DNA of 33,150 nucleotides from a virus. Each line of letters begins with the position of its first letter. The first letter of the stretch is position 1. This document shows positions 7,599-33,150 of the stretch, one piece after another. Location: the IMG/VR virus record IMGVR_UViG_3300030329_000057, positions 1,667 through 34,816 of that record. One strand, 5' to 3'. The position numbers and the translations under genes were made by a program. Under the pieces are notes generated by a model. That model made no database searches and was not told the origin of the DNA. It saw only the letters and a list, made by a program, of their open reading frames with translations.

Positions 7599-7781
7599 AT
7601 GTGTCTATTCAGTACGCCGAAGATGCCGGAGATGCCTGCGCCTCCCCCGCCTGCACCCCCGGCCCCGACGCGGATGACCCGCAAGGTCCGGCCTACCCCG
7701 ATAGCACGGTCTCGAATGGGCGCTGGCCGGTCTCAGGGCTCTCTGAGCCGCCTTCGTATCCCCCTGAATCTACCCCAGTAA
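7599..7781 (+). CDS. Proline-rich small protein upstream of portal
   Basis: 60 residues: starts MCLFSTPKMPEMPAPPPPAPP and ends in a basic LSRLRIPLN. Short proteins with a proline-rich N-terminus and a conserved LRIPL end often sit right before the portal gene in T7-like phages. Function unknown; a virion or assembly role is inferred from position only. The ATG follows a C/A-rich CCATAACC rather than a Shine-Dalgarno site. Confidence 0.7.
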   Translation: MCLFSTPKMPEMPAPPPPAPPAPTRMTRKVRPTPIARSRMGAGRSQGSLSRLRIPLNLPQ

Positions 7782-11607: not shown

Positions 11608-12884
11608 ATGGTCGATATCTCACGTCTCGGCACAACTAACGGCGCAGCAGCTGATGGTTCAGCCGAATATGCTCTTTTCCTGAAGGTGTTCTCGGGTTGA
11701 CTGAGCCCCCTAGAGCCGCAAGGCCCTAGAGCAAATCGTGTGAATTCAGGGAAACTCTCTCGTAGACAATCCTGAGCCAAGCCGCGTAAGCGGAAGGTGC
11801 AACGACTATCCCTTCGGGGAGTAGGATCAAGTGATCCGAAGCGCACGACACCCCTAGCGGGTGATGATATAGTCTCATCTGCATAGCGATATGCAGCAGC
11901 CGTAAGGCGGTATAGGTTTAACGAGCCTGTACGAAGATTCTGGAAGTCCTTTCTACTTTCCAAGAGACCAACCTCTTCATGGACAAGCACATGGTCCGCA
12001 CGATCTCGTCGGGCAAGTCCGCGCAGTTCCCCGTTCTCGGGACCGCCAGCACGAAGTATATGTCCCCTGGAGACTCCATCGTTGAAACCGCTGGATACCT
12101 CTCCCAGGTCAAGCACAACGAAAGGGTCATCCACATCGACCAGTTCCTCACGTCTAACGTGATGATTGCTGACGCCGATGAGCTGATGAACCACTACGAT
12201 GTTCGCTCTGAGTACGCTTCCGCCATCGGACGTGCCCTCGCCAAGCAGATGGACCAGAACATCATCTCGACGGTGTATGGTGCTGCGGCCACTTCGGAGA
12301 CCATTACCGGTTCCGGCAACGGTGGAACGCAACTCATCTCAGGAGCGGAAACCTCCGCTGTTACGGGTGCCAACCTGATCTCAGCGGCCTTTGACGCTGC
12401 CGAAACCCTTGACCTCCGAGATGCTCCCAAGGAAGACCGCATCATGGCTGTCCGTCCTTCGGAATACTACAAGCTGATCGAAGCGAGCGGCTCAGGCACC
12501 AGCCTTGTCAACCGCGATTACGCTGCCGGTAACGGCGGTATCGCTGACGGCAACGTCTTCCGTGTCGCCGGATTCCAGATTGTTTCCACAAACAACCTGA
12601 ACGGCACCGACACCACGGCAACCGGCTCTTCTGACGCAGGTATCCGAAACGACCCCCTTGGGGGCAGCGGAACCGGCTACCAGGAAGGTATCGCGTGGGA
12701 CGAACTCCACGCGCTGTTCTTCCACAAGTCAGCCGTTGGTACCGTCAAGCTCGCTGACCTTAGCGTCGAGAGCGAGTACCAGCTTGAGCGCCTTGCGACC
12801 CTCTTCGTCGCCAAGTATATGTGCGGTCACGGCGTTCTTCGCCCTGAGTCCGCCGTGTCTTACGCGAAGGCGGCGATGGCCTAA
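11608..12884 (+). CDS. Major capsid protein (T7 gp10-like), split by a group I intron
   Basis: Two exons: 11608-11697 and 11943-12884, joined in frame to 343 residues (T7 gp10A has 344). Exon 1 codes 30 residues ending …YALFLKVFSG, then a TGA follows in frame. Exon 2 resumes EVLSTFQETNLFMDKHMVRTISSGKS. The joined sequence lines up with T7 gp10A, where LFLKVFGGEVLTAF…HMVRSISSGKSAQFPVLG is continuous, so the splice point falls between residues 30 and 31. Further conserved parts are VIHIDQFLTSNVMIADADELMNHYDVRSEYAS and the HK97-fold body. It forms the icosahedral shell. Annotated without splicing, the gene would wrongly appear to start at ATG 11979. A strong terminator follows. Confidence 0.93.
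11698..11942 (+). ncRNA. Group I self-splicing intron (245 nt, no ORF), probably subgroup IA
   Basis: The last exon base is T (11697) and the last intron base is G (11942), as group I splicing requires. Pairings read from the sequence: P1, exon GGGU with GCCC (11705-11708); P2, 11710-11729 with a GCAA loop; P3, 11736-11742 with 11842-11848; P4, UCAGG (11746) with CCUGA (11771); P6a, 11782-11793 with a GUAA loop; P7, GACUAU (11804-11809) with AUAGUC (11869-11874); P8, 11850-11862; P9, 11881-11894 with a GCGA loop; a further GUAA hairpin at 11899-11908. Two extra hairpins between P7 and P3' (CCC-UUCG-GGG at 11810; GGAUCA/UGAUCC at 11824-11837) suggest subgroup IA. AGUC of exon 2 could form P10 with GACU at 11699. 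Confidence 0.93.
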
Positions 12885-27363: not shown

Positions 27364-27384
27364 GGCCCCCAACCCCCACACTAA

Positions 27385-27993
27385 ATGACTACTAAAGTAT
27401 CCGATGGGATGACCACGGGCCTTGTTAAGACCTCCAATCTCGCATCAAAAACGCCGACTTCTAAAAGCTCCGGCGACGAAGGTAAGGTTGTCCAGCTCAA
27501 CGCCTCAGGAACCATCCCGACTGTCTATGGAGGCGGTCGGGTTCTTCAGGTTGCCCAGGCTGTTGTAACCGCTGCTGTCAGTGGAACTGGCACAGTCCCT
27601 GCTGATGACACGATCCCCCAGAACACCGAGGGGAACGAGGGGATGACCCTAGCTTTCACCCCGAAGGCCGCTAGTTCGACGCTCTATATCGACATTCGTG
27701 CCAGCGTCCGAAACAACCACTCTGGTAACAATCAACTGTGTGTCGCCTTGTTTGTAGACAGCACGGCAAATGCTCTTGCGGCGGTCGGGCAACTTACGGC
27801 TGCGGACGAAGGAGGAGTCTTCAGTATCAACCATTCAGTCAGTGCCGCCTCAACAACAGCGCGGACCTATAAGGTGCGGTTCGGCGGGAATAACTCCGCG
27901 ACAACCACACTGAACTGTGTGCAGGGAGGGACCACTCGCATCTATGGCGGGGTGGCCTCTTCCACCATAACGATCACAGAGATCGGAGCCTGA
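27385..27993 (+). CDS. Probable virion appendage or fibre-associated protein
   Basis: 202 residues, no Cys-rich or enzymatic motif. The N-terminus has a linker-like stretch (SKTPTSKSSGDEGKVVQLNASGTIPTVYGGGRVLQVAQAV). The rest is beta-rich with TLYIDIRASVRNNHSGNNQLCVALFVDSTANA and ends GGVASSTITITEIGA. Similar folds occur at fibre tips and in small head or tail decorations. The final residues resemble the end of the fibre gene (a short beta strand), so it might be a second receptor-binding subunit. The ATG has a C/A-rich leader, not a Shine-Dalgarno site. Confidence 0.62.
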   Translation: MTTKVSDGMTTGLVKTSNLASKTPTSKSSGDEGKVVQLNASGTIPTVYGGGRVLQVAQAVVTAAVSGTGTVPADDTIPQNTEGNEGMTLAFTPKAASSTLYIDIRASVRNNHSGNNQLCVALFVDSTANALAAVGQLTAADEGGVFSINHSVSAASTTARTYKVRFGGNNSATTTLNCVQGGTTRIYGGVASSTITITEIGA

Positions 27994-30559: not shown

Positions 30560-30967
30560 GACGCTCTGTAAGACGCTGTAAGACGATATCTAGGAAAACA
30601 TGAGCCATGAGTCGTCTTAGACCGAAAGTCTCTTAGAGAGGCTTACAGAGGCCTTAGAAGGAAAGACGGTTCTTGGGGACCTAGGGTGTCTGTAAGATTC
30701 AGACAGATTCTGAACTAGCTACCCATACCAGTCTCCACACAAGACAAAATAATTGGGTCCACCTTACGGAGGGACGGAAACCCTTAAGATAACCTAGAGA
30801 AGACCCAGAGAGGAAGAGGGAGGAGGGAGGCCCCTGCCTCCCCACCTCTGAGAACTCTGGGATATCTCTAGGACAACTGTAAGACATCTTAAGATACCTA
30901 AGGACTCTGTCAGTAATCTTAAGGTACTTGAAGATACTAAAAGATACTTAAAGATACTGGAGGCCTC
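30560..30967 (+). repeat. Non-coding repeat-rich region after terminase, likely near the genome end
   Basis: 408 bases without a credible gene. It holds four copies of CTGTAAGA (30566 and 30576 in tandem with ACG, 30690, 30877), palindrome-like TCTTAGA/CCTTAGAAGG elements around 30612-30660, and A/T-rich units of TTAAGATAC type. Composition differs sharply from the genes. T7 keeps short repeats (CCTAAAG) beside its terminal repeats, so this may be the equivalent packaging or end-formation region. Confidence 0.65.
30919..30958 (+). repeat. Four contiguous 10-bp repeats
   Basis: Units TTAAGGTACT, TGAAGATACT, AAAAGATACT and TAAAGATACT follow each other without gaps. Further diverged units lie at 30784 and 30889. 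A period of 10 bp is about one helical turn, so a protein could bind on one face. The array ends right at the ribosome-binding site of the next gene. Confidence 0.88.
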
Positions 30968-31279: not shown

Positions 31280-31503
31280 CGTGTAGGTCCCGGCTGGCGG
31301 TTCCCCCCGGCGGGGGTCTCCCTATCATCCGCGCGACGCGCGCGCTGGCCTGTCGCGCGATAACAAGGCCAGCCCGAACCGCCCCCGGTCCTCGAGGCGT
31401 CCACGGGACCCGCGCGATTCCTTGGGGGAGGGGTGCAAAACGGGGGAGGGGCGCAGGGTGAAGACCTGCGATCACCAGGGGAGGGGGTCCAATTCCAGCC
31501 AAC
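31280..31503 (+). other. GC/G-rich non-coding stretch with inverted and direct repeats
   Basis: No credible gene. It contains a CCCCC/GGGGG hairpin (31303-31316), a CG-only stretch with CGCGCGACGCGCGCG, an inverted repeat CTGGCC (31345-31350) / GGCCAG (31367-31372) enclosing TCGCGCGA, and a direct repeat GGGGGAGGGG (31424-31433 and 31442-31451) with a related run at 31478. An open frame here (31255-31461) codes only Arg/Pro/Gly-rich sequence and is rejected. Confidence 0.6.
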
Positions 31504-31553
31504 GGGGGATGGTATCCACAAGTAGACCTTGTGGGTGTTGTCCCCCATTTTTC
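31504..31553 (+). terminator. Strong intrinsic terminator between late and early regions
   Basis: Inner stem CCACAAG (31516-31522) with CTTGTGG (31528-31534), 5-nt loop TAGAC; outer stem GGGGGA (31504-31509) with TCCCCC (31541-31546); then ATTTTTC. It should stop transcription coming from the late genes before the early region. Confidence 0.85.
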
Positions 31554-31622
31554 GGATTGACCTAAGCGGCTGCAAACTCACCCGGTTAGGACCGCCGGGG
31601 TAAAGTTCTCTGGGCTAGGGGG

Positions 31623-31650
31623 TTGCAGGACTCTAGGCAGACCCTAGGAT
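31623..31650 (+). promoter_or_regulatory. Possible early promoter
   Basis: TTGCAG (31623-31628), a 16-nt spacer and TAGGAT (31645-31650), 57 nt before the first early gene and just past the terminator. The match to sigma-70 consensus is weak (3/6 and 4/6); position is the main argument. The rest of 31554-31707 shows no gene. Confidence 0.25.
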
Positions 31651-31707
31651 CGTCGATGTACCAAGCACCGAGCGAGAATTTCTCTCACTCCCAACCCCGA
31701 TCCACCT

Positions 31708-31896
31708 ATGACCACATCCACAAGCACCGAACCCGCGCAAATCATCCCCTGCTCCTGCAAGTACTGGGAGGGTGAGACTCAGGGCTTCGGGTCCGATGAC
31801 GATACCCCGATGATTCCACAGGCCTTGTACGATCCTGAGACCGGGCACATCTGCTGCATCGAATGCGGTGCGGCTCTCCTTACAGTCTCCCGCTAA
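31708..31896 (+). CDS. Small early protein with Cys pairs, possible zinc-binding
   Basis: 62 residues. Cysteines at CSC and HICCIECG (C-x-C … C-C-x2-C) could bind zinc; the fold is not recognised. It is the first gene after the terminator and possible promoter. The start has no Shine-Dalgarno site; a GATCCACCT sequence precedes the ATG. Probably an early host-takeover or defence-evasion gene by position. Confidence 0.65.
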   Translation: MTTSTSTEPAQIIPCSCKYWEGETQGFGSDDDTPMIPQALYDPETGHICCIECGAALLTVSR

Positions 31897-31904
31897 ACCC
31901 CGAA

Positions 31905-31917
31905 CCCACGATCCACC
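31905..31917 (+). promoter_or_regulatory. Repeated SD-less leader motif, copy 1
   Basis: CCCACGATCCACC directly before the ATG at 31918. The same 13 bases precede the ATG at 32398, with the same 21-nt distance from the previous TAA. No AGGAG-type site is present. Confidence 0.7.
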
Positions 31918-32376
31918 ATGAAACTCAAGCGCAACTCTTGGACCCTTTTCGGGTCCCCCGACGATACACCCGTCATTGAGGTCTACCCCGATTCTCAGCC
32001 GGATACCTTGGCTTCCTACTGGACCCTCGGACTCGACGAATACGGAACCGTCGATCCCTTGGCGGCTTCCCATTGGAGCGCGTGTGGAGAGGTCTTGCTA
32101 GGCACCCTGACTCTAGATAAGGCTGGGCCTTTCCTTCCGGCAATACAGAAGCACCGCTCCATGCGGGGCACCAAGGCTCTCACCAAGGAACTCAACGCTT
32201 ACTATAAGGCCCACGGGATGTCGCCGATGTGCGCCCTAGAGGCTCAACATTGGATTTGCGCCGAAGAGCGTTTTCGAAGCCCTGACGGCTCCTTGAATCA
32301 AGCCGGAGTTGCCCACATTGAATACCTAGAGGAGTTCTCTACCCTCTGGCAGTTCGCAGAAACTCTCGGCATCTAA
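31918..32376 (+). CDS. Hypothetical early protein, 152 aa
   Basis: Starts MKLKRNSWTLFGSPDDTPVIEVYPDSQPDTLASYWTLGLDEYG and has a helical C-terminal half (GTKALTKELNAYYKAHGM, HIEYLEEFSTLWQFAETLGI). No motif recognised. It lies in a row of early genes separated by short C/A-rich leaders and ending in TAA. Confidence 0.7.
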   Translation: MKLKRNSWTLFGSPDDTPVIEVYPDSQPDTLASYWTLGLDEYGTVDPLAASHWSACGEVLLGTLTLDKAGPFLPAIQKHRSMRGTKALTKELNAYYKAHGMSPMCALEAQHWICAEERFRSPDGSLNQAGVAHIEYLEEFSTLWQFAETLGI

Positions 32377-32384
32377 ACCCCAAC

Positions 32385-32397
32385 CCCACGATCCACC
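32385..32397 (+). promoter_or_regulatory. Repeated SD-less leader motif, copy 2
   Basis: CCCACGATCCACC directly before the ATG at 32398, identical to the motif at 31905. Variants precede the ATGs at 32516 (ACAAACCACC) and 32760 (ACGATCTATC). Confidence 0.7.
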
Positions 32398-32493
32398 ATG
32401 ACCCTCTTCCAGACAATCAGCGAGCTGCTCCGCCATGAATGGCGGGATCTGCTGTTCTTCGCTGGACTCTTCCTGATCGTTCTCTACGTCTAA
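32398..32493 (+). CDS. 31-residue single-pass membrane peptide
   Basis: A small ORF with the full repeated leader motif. The sequence MTLFQTISELLRHEWR leads into a membrane helix DLLFFAGLFLIVLYV that ends at the stop. The conserved leader and in-line spacing with its neighbours argue that it is translated. Function unknown; small early membrane peptides can act on host envelope or exclude other phages. Confidence 0.62.
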   Translation: MTLFQTISELLRHEWRDLLFFAGLFLIVLYV

Positions 32494-32515
32494 CCCCAAA
32501 CACTCACAAACCACC

Positions 32516-32677
32516 ATGAACACCCCCACAAAATCTTGGGTAATCATCCGAGACAACGCCGGACGCCTGAAGATATGGCGCGATTATGGCACCGCTTGGG
32601 GCTCCCCGGCTTACACCGTCCTGGGATACTTTGACGGTTCCCGGCGTGAAGCCCTGGCCTACTCTCGGACCCTGTAA
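32516..32677 (+). CDS. Hypothetical early protein, 53 aa
   Basis: ATG after ACAAACCACC, a variant of the leader motif. The sequence MNTPTKSWVIIRDNAGRLKIWRDYG…TVLGYFDGSRREALAYSRTL looks like a small beta-alpha protein with a C-terminal helix. Such …F.GSRREALAYS… ends occur in small phage proteins of unknown role. An 82-nt stretch follows, with a CCCGC/GCGGG inverted repeat (32708-32712, 32738-32742). Confidence 0.65.
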   Translation: MNTPTKSWVIIRDNAGRLKIWRDYGTAWGSPAYTVLGYFDGSRREALAYSRTL

Positions 32678-32759
32678 ACCCCAAATCACTCACAGAACCC
32701 AGGAGAACCCGCTCCCGCCGGACTCCGCCAAACATCTGCGGGAACACTCACGATCTATC

Positions 32760-33062
32760 ATGGAACGCTTACCGAACCTTCGCTCTCTTGAAGTCAAATT
32801 CTACGGACCCACGAATCACCGGGGGGATCGTATCCGAATTCGAGACCTTCGAGGGATCATCGAGAAACCTCTCTGGATCGATTACAACTACGACCACGAC
32901 AACGCTCACGATCAGGCCCGTGATCATCTGGAGAGCCTGGGGTGGTCTTTCGTAGGCCAGACGATGCTACCCGAGACGAACCTACTGTTAACCGATGACT
33001 TCTGCCGGGAGTCTTGGGAGATGCCTGAGGTCTCCTCAGCATCTCAGGAGGTCTCAGCATGA
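32760..33062 (+). CDS. Hypothetical early protein, 100 aa
   Basis: ATG 32760 follows ACGATCTATC, again a leader-motif variant; the frame is open further upstream but the intergenic motif marks the start. The protein starts MERLPNLRSLEVKFYGPTNHRGDRIRIRDLRG and has NYDHDNAHDQARDHLESLGWSFVGQ in the middle. No function recognised. Its stop overlaps the next ATG (ATGA). Confidence 0.68.
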   Translation: MERLPNLRSLEVKFYGPTNHRGDRIRIRDLRGIIEKPLWIDYNYDHDNAHDQARDHLESLGWSFVGQTMLPETNLLLTDDFCRESWEMPEVSSASQEVSA

Positions 33063-33150
33063 GCAAGTACAAGATCACACACATCGTGGCCGAATGGGTG
33101 GCCTACACCTACGAGGTCGAAGCCAAGGACGAGGCGGCTGCCCTTGAGGC
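33059..33150 (+). CDS. Start of a further early gene (truncated by window end)
   Basis: ATG 33059 follows a perfect AGGAGG (33047-33052). The visible 30 residues, MSKYKITHIVAEWVAYTYEVEAKDE…, resemble the start of a small conserved phage protein. In contrast to the genes just before it, this start has a classical Shine-Dalgarno site. Confidence 0.65.
   Translation, partial: MSKYKITHIVAEWVAYTYEVEAKDEAAALE

Follow-up and report, generated by a model that had tools for sequence, protein, structure and literature searches.

Why do several small early genes of one phage start directly behind the same C/A-rich word, where a Shine-Dalgarno (SD) sequence would be expected? The question arose from a virus record of 34,816 bases, of which we analysed positions 1667-34816, a stretch of 33,150 nucleotides referred to here as the window. 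The window is a T7-like phage: it encodes a helicase-primase, a family A DNA polymerase and a terminase large subunit of T7-like type, and the end of a single-subunit RNA polymerase gene lies just before the window start. By terL, the closest cultured relatives are Autographiviridae of Roseobacter, Pelagibacter and Rhizobium, all below 60% identity. The RNA polymerase as sole query returned one relative, whose contig likewise breaks at the early region, and a search for the host among bacterial genomes that carry a related RNA polymerase gene gave only matches of 30-45% identity, none of them close. Because the record ends cut through the early region, 31.6-33.15 kb (Table 1) represents its first part only. 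Its layout is like that of T7, where short early genes read by the host RNA polymerase precede the phage RNA polymerase gene.

Table 1. Early region of the window (31504-33062) and one late leader of the same style; positions are those of the window.
Feature	Position	Strand	Remarks
Strong intrinsic terminator	31504..31546	+	19-pair stem and T-run; end of the late (right) operon, shortly before the early region
Probable early promoter region	31555..31662	+	TTGACCTAAG (31558-31567), GGGGTTGCAGGA; TAGGAT 16 nt after TTGCAG
Leader, early gene 1	31688..31707	+	CTCCCAACCCCGATCCACCT; variant with 2 mismatches, no SD
Early gene 1, 62 aa, no known family	31708..31896	+	coding score z 2.8
Leader, early gene 2	31897..31917	+	ACCCCGAACCCACGATCCACC; exact 13-mer at 31905-31917
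Early gene 2, 152 aa, no known family	31918..32376	+	coding score z 5.2
Leader, early gene 3	32377..32397	+	ACCCCAACCCCACGATCCACC; exact 13-mer at 32385-32397
Early gene 3, 31 aa, hydrophobic C-terminal segment	32398..32493	+	coding score z 3.3
Leader, early gene 4	32494..32515	+	CCCCAAACACTCACAAACCACC; G-free, variant with 3 mismatches
Early gene 4, 53 aa	32516..32677	+	coding score z 3.5
Long leader, early gene 5	32678..32759	+	ACTCACA, possible G+C-rich hairpin, then ACTCACGATCTATC abutting the ATG
Early gene 5, 100 aa	32760..33062	+	coding score z 4.1
SD-less C/A-rich leader of a late gene (27385-27993)	27365..27384	+	GCCCCCAACCCCCACACTAA; same style, different word

The repeated word and the genes behind it

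The initial annotation had pointed to one word before two start codons, each 21 nt after a TAA, and this was confirmed: CCCACGATCCACC occupies 31905-31917 and 32385-32397, abutting ATG 31918 and ATG 32398, and the TAA codons lie at 31894-31896 and 32374-32376. The repeat is longer than the 13-mer, as CTAAACCCCRAMCCCACGATCCACCATGA, which extends from the upstream gene's stop codon into the beginning of the downstream gene, is identical at 27 of 29 positions, and the identity is still 88% over 34 nt. The looser variants that had been listed were found as well, namely ACCCCGATCCACC (2 mismatches) one base before ATG 31708, CTCACAAACCACC (3 mismatches) directly before 32516, and CTCACGATCTATC (3 mismatches) directly before 32760. 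The two exact and three looser copies all lie on the plus strand within 1.1 kb. The distance from the word to the ATG is fixed, being 0 nt in four copies and 1 nt in the copy before 31708, whereas the distance to the upstream gene is variable. Among the 536 ATGs of the window, CCCACGATCCACC is the sole 13-mer found directly before more than one. An identical pair arose in none of 20,000 Markov simulations of 31600-33150 and in 1 of 300 simulations of the whole window.

All five early ORFs look coding in their assigned frames by the coding score. Early gene 1 had neither a PHROG match nor a gathering-level Pfam match, and early gene 2 had no relative among viral contigs. All-against-all BLASTP with the early proteins of five phages revealed no homology among the early genes of the window, apart from a single match of 10 residues between genes 1 and 2 (FGS.DDTP, E 0.016). 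Gene duplication, one of the origins first proposed for the repeat, was rejected because the genes behind the repeated leaders are without homology and hence not paralogues. Inside genes 1 and 2, the 30 nt that encode FGS.DDTP are 77% identical (31786-31815 versus 31948-31977), a likeness that appears too short to show common origin. The related proposal, that cassettes travel together with their leader, could be upheld in part, as non-homologous genes share the leader and nothing else.

Leaders of related phages

A search of other early genes and of relatives recovered the motif in L009, the closest relative, whereas in phages farther away the style persists with different words. The terL of L009 is 88% identical to that of the window in amino acids and 85% in DNA. 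L009 carries CCCACGATCCACA, which has 12 of the 13 bases of the word, before ATG 10587 and ATG 10997, the starts of two further unrelated early genes. Past about position 31373 of the window, the sole DNA similarity found between the two phages is that of these two leaders, with 19 of 20 bases each. The L009 gene at 10587 has an L015 orthologue (57% amino acid identity) that is colinear from the first Met, and its start codon is therefore probably the true one. Its membership in Pfam Phage_L5_gp82 (L009:10587-10982) supports this start as well; the early gene at L099:96-770 belongs to GP88, and both families were first named in mycobacteriophages.

A single one of the 19-mer matches in viral contigs is a leader, that in L191 (the L009 contig). 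The matches in L190 and L193 run antisense inside terL, and those in L189 and L192 share a near-identical context on contigs that have no match to the window proteins tested. A wide spread of the exact word was also rejected, since its eight exact 16-mer matches in viral contigs come without homology to six conserved window proteins; most of them precede no real ORF.

The distant relatives L015, L016 and L099 have SD-less, G-poor repeated words of their own before their proximal early genes: TAACCACAAGAAACCA in L015, TCTAACCACAA in L016 and CCTAACTCACTA in L099. In L015 and L016, the leader is often preceded by a hairpin cassette of about 108 nt, located between unrelated early genes. Seven near-identical copies with three hairpins each lie in L016:5579-7857 and L015:4272-4769. 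All seven copies preserve the pairing of the hairpins: two base pairs differ by compensatory changes, and none is broken. As evidence for RNA structure this is moderate, because dinucleotide shuffles fold nearly as stably (z about -1). A scan of viral contigs with a 30-base pattern found the cassette only in these phages, and Rfam held no family for either the cassette or the window leaders. The L015 gene at 4005, orthologue of the L016 gene at 5702, is without the cassette, and such modules therefore come and go. RNase III sites, antitermination RNAs and recombination modules are all possible identities of these cassettes. RNA processing had also been suggested as a role of the motif in the window. 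The window leaders themselves are unstructured, and it is only in L015 and L016, and possibly ahead of 32760, that hairpins occur upstream of the leader; a processing hairpin is therefore not what the motif itself forms.

We also surveyed 150 T7-like loci for ORF pairs that differ in coding sequence but have an identical 12-mer at equal distance before the ATG. Such pairs were found in 17 loci, compared with 0 to 10 loci (mean about 4) for each of 16 control codons, and ATG-locked repeated leaders are thus enriched in T7-like phages. Most of them contain an SD, for example ATAGGAGGATAA in L019 and AAGGATGCACACA in L034. SD-less, C/A-rich repeated leaders before early ORFs also occur outside the clade, in L024, L060, L146 and L154. 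T7 itself differs from the window, as the SD energy is at or below -4.9 kcal/mol at each of the 16 early and class II starts that we checked, and no 12-mer is repeated. Within a partial coverage of the literature, we found no paper that describes repeated leaders without an SD on early genes of Autographiviridae.

Shine-Dalgarno strength and openness of the start sites

We compared 22 proximal early leaders of five phages with 41 other starts. With sets that were picked by hand and not blind, repeated leaders that are non-independent and one of the 41 entries (L016:12911) not being a start codon, the early leaders had a mean SD energy of -0.9 against -6.4 kcal/mol (the SD usage of the host may differ), 1.3 against 5.4 G in the last 20 nt, and a TIR fold (-25 to +20) of -1.0 against -6.6 kcal/mol, each with a Mann-Whitney p below 1e-6. 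The SD energy of the CCCACGATCCACC leader is about 0. None of the five early starts of the window reaches -4 kcal/mol, the copy before 32760 coming nearest with -3.8, and folding indicated that the leaders in the window are unstructured. The start sites thus combine the lack of an SD with low structure, the two marks of a leader for SD-independent initiation.

The rest of the genome had been described as using purine-rich sites. This holds for 18 of the 29 other window starts (SD energy of -4 kcal/mol or lower) but was overstated, as about a third of the other window genes have no clear SD; SD-less examples are the genes at 7599, 7783 and 17150, besides 27385. The major capsid gene, whose 5' exon begins at ATG 11608 behind the SD AAGGAG, contains a group I intron (gene at window 11608-12884; Rfam RF00028, 88.7 bits, 11681-11896). 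Exceptions exist among the early starts, too: the first early gene of L009 has an SD-like AAAGGA, and L016 5702 and L015 3580 are borderline in SD energy. Farther into the early region, L016 and L099 use SD-bearing, overlapping starts, and so it is the proximal early block that stands apart from all other starts; the divide is not strictly one of early against late genes.

Candidate roles of the leader

A precedent for words linked to start codons is the start-associated sequence (SAS) of cluster K mycobacteriophages (Pope et al. 2011, PMC3203893), with a similar motif in cluster EF Microbacterium phages (PMC7302621). The SAS is a 13-nt asymmetric word of unknown function, found in one orientation near the starts of non-structural genes only, of different families, and conserved among related phages (PMC3203893, PMC7302621). 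The window word is likewise asymmetric, occurs in one orientation at starts before different families of non-structural genes, and is conserved in related phages. However, the SAS words GGGATAGGAGCCC and GGGAAAGGACCCC hold an SD core, whereas the window word is C/A-rich without an SD. The copy number differs as well, with 10 to 19 SAS copies per genome compared with two exact and three loose ones in an incomplete early region, and so do the hosts of the element, the window being a T7-like phage with its own RNA polymerase. The word is not the cluster K SAS proper, as CCCACGATCCACC lacks both the consensus GGGATAGGAGCCC and its SD core. From its position and distribution in the sequences, we file the window element as an SD-less variant of the SAS kind.

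About half of the SAS copies are preceded by an ESAS with inverted repeats, whose arms do not covary as RNA, so that its authors favour a DNA-binding site (PMC3203893). The L015 and L016 leaders similarly often follow a repeated element with inverted repeats, but their hairpins maintain pairing through the two compensatory changes. Within the window, the only site that may be ESAS-like is 32678-32759, with a fold of -14.9 kcal/mol (z -1.1, not significant).

We consider it likely, with a probability of roughly 60%, that the element is a lineage-specific, SAS-like start-associated sequence, that is, an unstructured leader for SD-independent initiation that is shuffled with gene cassettes. Transcription by the host RNA polymerase would begin at a promoter near 31560-31660 and yield a polycistronic early mRNA. 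Two sequences, ACCTAAG/ACCTAGG and GGG..CAGGA, form conserved blocks before the first early gene of four phages; the promoter call is tentative because the early region has no plus-strand match to the sigma-70 consensus. On such a transcript, an unstructured leader, poor in G and rich in C and A, would stand before every small early gene, and 30S subunits could start there without SD pairing and uncoupled from the upstream gene. Gene and leader would move as cassettes, and selection together with recombination would keep the leader, so that the word recurs. We favour a role in the mRNA at initiation because the word is locked to the ATG, has one orientation and is also present in the 5' UTR of the first gene. 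The function at starts that had been proposed from the repetition is partly borne out by an SD-less, unstructured element that abuts the ATG and recurs before unrelated genes, including those of L009.

The GATCC in the word could presumably pair with a GGAUC of the 16S rRNA 3' end. Such pairing outside the CCUCC core was rejected, as GATCC is not kept in the other leaders (ACAAACCACC, GATCTATC and CTAACCACAA). SD-independent initiation on open, A-rich leaders has been described in E. coli and Bacteroidetes (PMC7043885, PMC6847099). Those leaders also lack an SD and have little structure at the start site. The window leaders are not simply this known A-rich enhancer, because they hold more C than A, with one exact word repeated, and changing upstream A to C abolished expression of E. 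coli reporters (PMC7043885).

What speaks against SD-independent initiation as the whole explanation is that the constancy of the word goes far beyond what an unstructured leader would require. This constancy, in a word that overlaps the initiation region, is also why an operator for a translational regulator has to be taken seriously as the main rival, together with the C-rich composition of the leaders, which is unfavourable to generic A-rich initiation in E. coli (PMC7043885). In this reading, a small RNA, or an RNA-binding protein of either phage or host, would switch several early genes together in the manner of T4 RegA, which acts at about 30 initiation regions. RegA sites, too, are unstructured and lie at or just 5' of the AUG (PMC3014915), in the initiation regions of several early mRNAs, although they are A+U-rich and poorly conserved in sequence, unlike the window word (PMC3014915). 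As an operator would predict, the two closest phages both retain the core CCCACGATCCAC ahead of genes that are unrelated. We nevertheless regard an operator as unlikely: no candidate regulator was found in the record, from which the early-region part possibly encoding one is missing; minus-strand near-matches to the word are scattered in the window, with no evident complementary RNA; and the words of L015, L016 and L099 differ both between and within phages, so that a regulator would have to co-diverge with them.

The leader might also have no role in expression and merely provide short homology for the exchange or insertion of early cassettes, as a neutral by-product of mosaic recombination. 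Non-homologous genes that share only leaders, the cassette of about 108 nt that is nearly identical between unrelated genes of L016, and its absence before L015 4005 would all suit such a history. Recombination by itself seems improbable, however, since the repeats are locked to the start codon and not to the stop or to the middle of the gap, in T7-like phages ATG-locked repeats are more frequent than repeats at control codons, the leaders are open and consistently lack an SD, and the L015/L016 stems include two compensatory pairs and no broken one. A transcription signal for each gene, a promoter or operator that gives leaderless or very short-leader transcripts, could be imagined from a word repeated in one orientation before each gene and from the promoter-like conserved blocks upstream of the first, but is very improbable given the lack of sigma-70-like sites on the plus strand here, the 0-1 nt to the ATG with a variable distance to the upstream gene, and a first gene that has the word in addition to those blocks; the same style in the 5' UTR of this gene fits a role in RNA instead.

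The SD-less word bears on two further questions. The SAS has been reported in a few actinobacteriophage clusters and has an SD inside, and might be just a strong ribosome-binding site. An SD-less case at that position, in another kind of phage, keeps the two possibilities apart and opens the role of start-linked repeats to testing. A further suggestion is that the early gene cassettes of T7-like phages come with a start leader specific to their lineage, a feature that could assist the prediction of small early genes in metagenomic phages. That the clade has a dedicated SD-independent signal for its first early genes, with early and later genes on different initiation modes of the same ribosomes, is a speculation that we hold to be quite unlikely; if true, the phage could favour or shut off early synthesis through one initiation mode, for example by a regulator of its own word.

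Short direct repeats around CTGTAAGA/CTTAAGATAC follow terL in both the window (30560-30960) and L009 (L009:9461-9540, period about 10 nt) and are reminiscent of the short repeats near the T7 genome ends. Upstream of the RNA polymerase gene, L016 (L016:9409-10440) and L099 (L099:2625-3659) contain a tyrosine-integrase-like gene, on account of which the clade may integrate; an integrase-like gene is annotated at the same place in Roseobacter phage CRP-227 and Rhizobium phage RHEph01.
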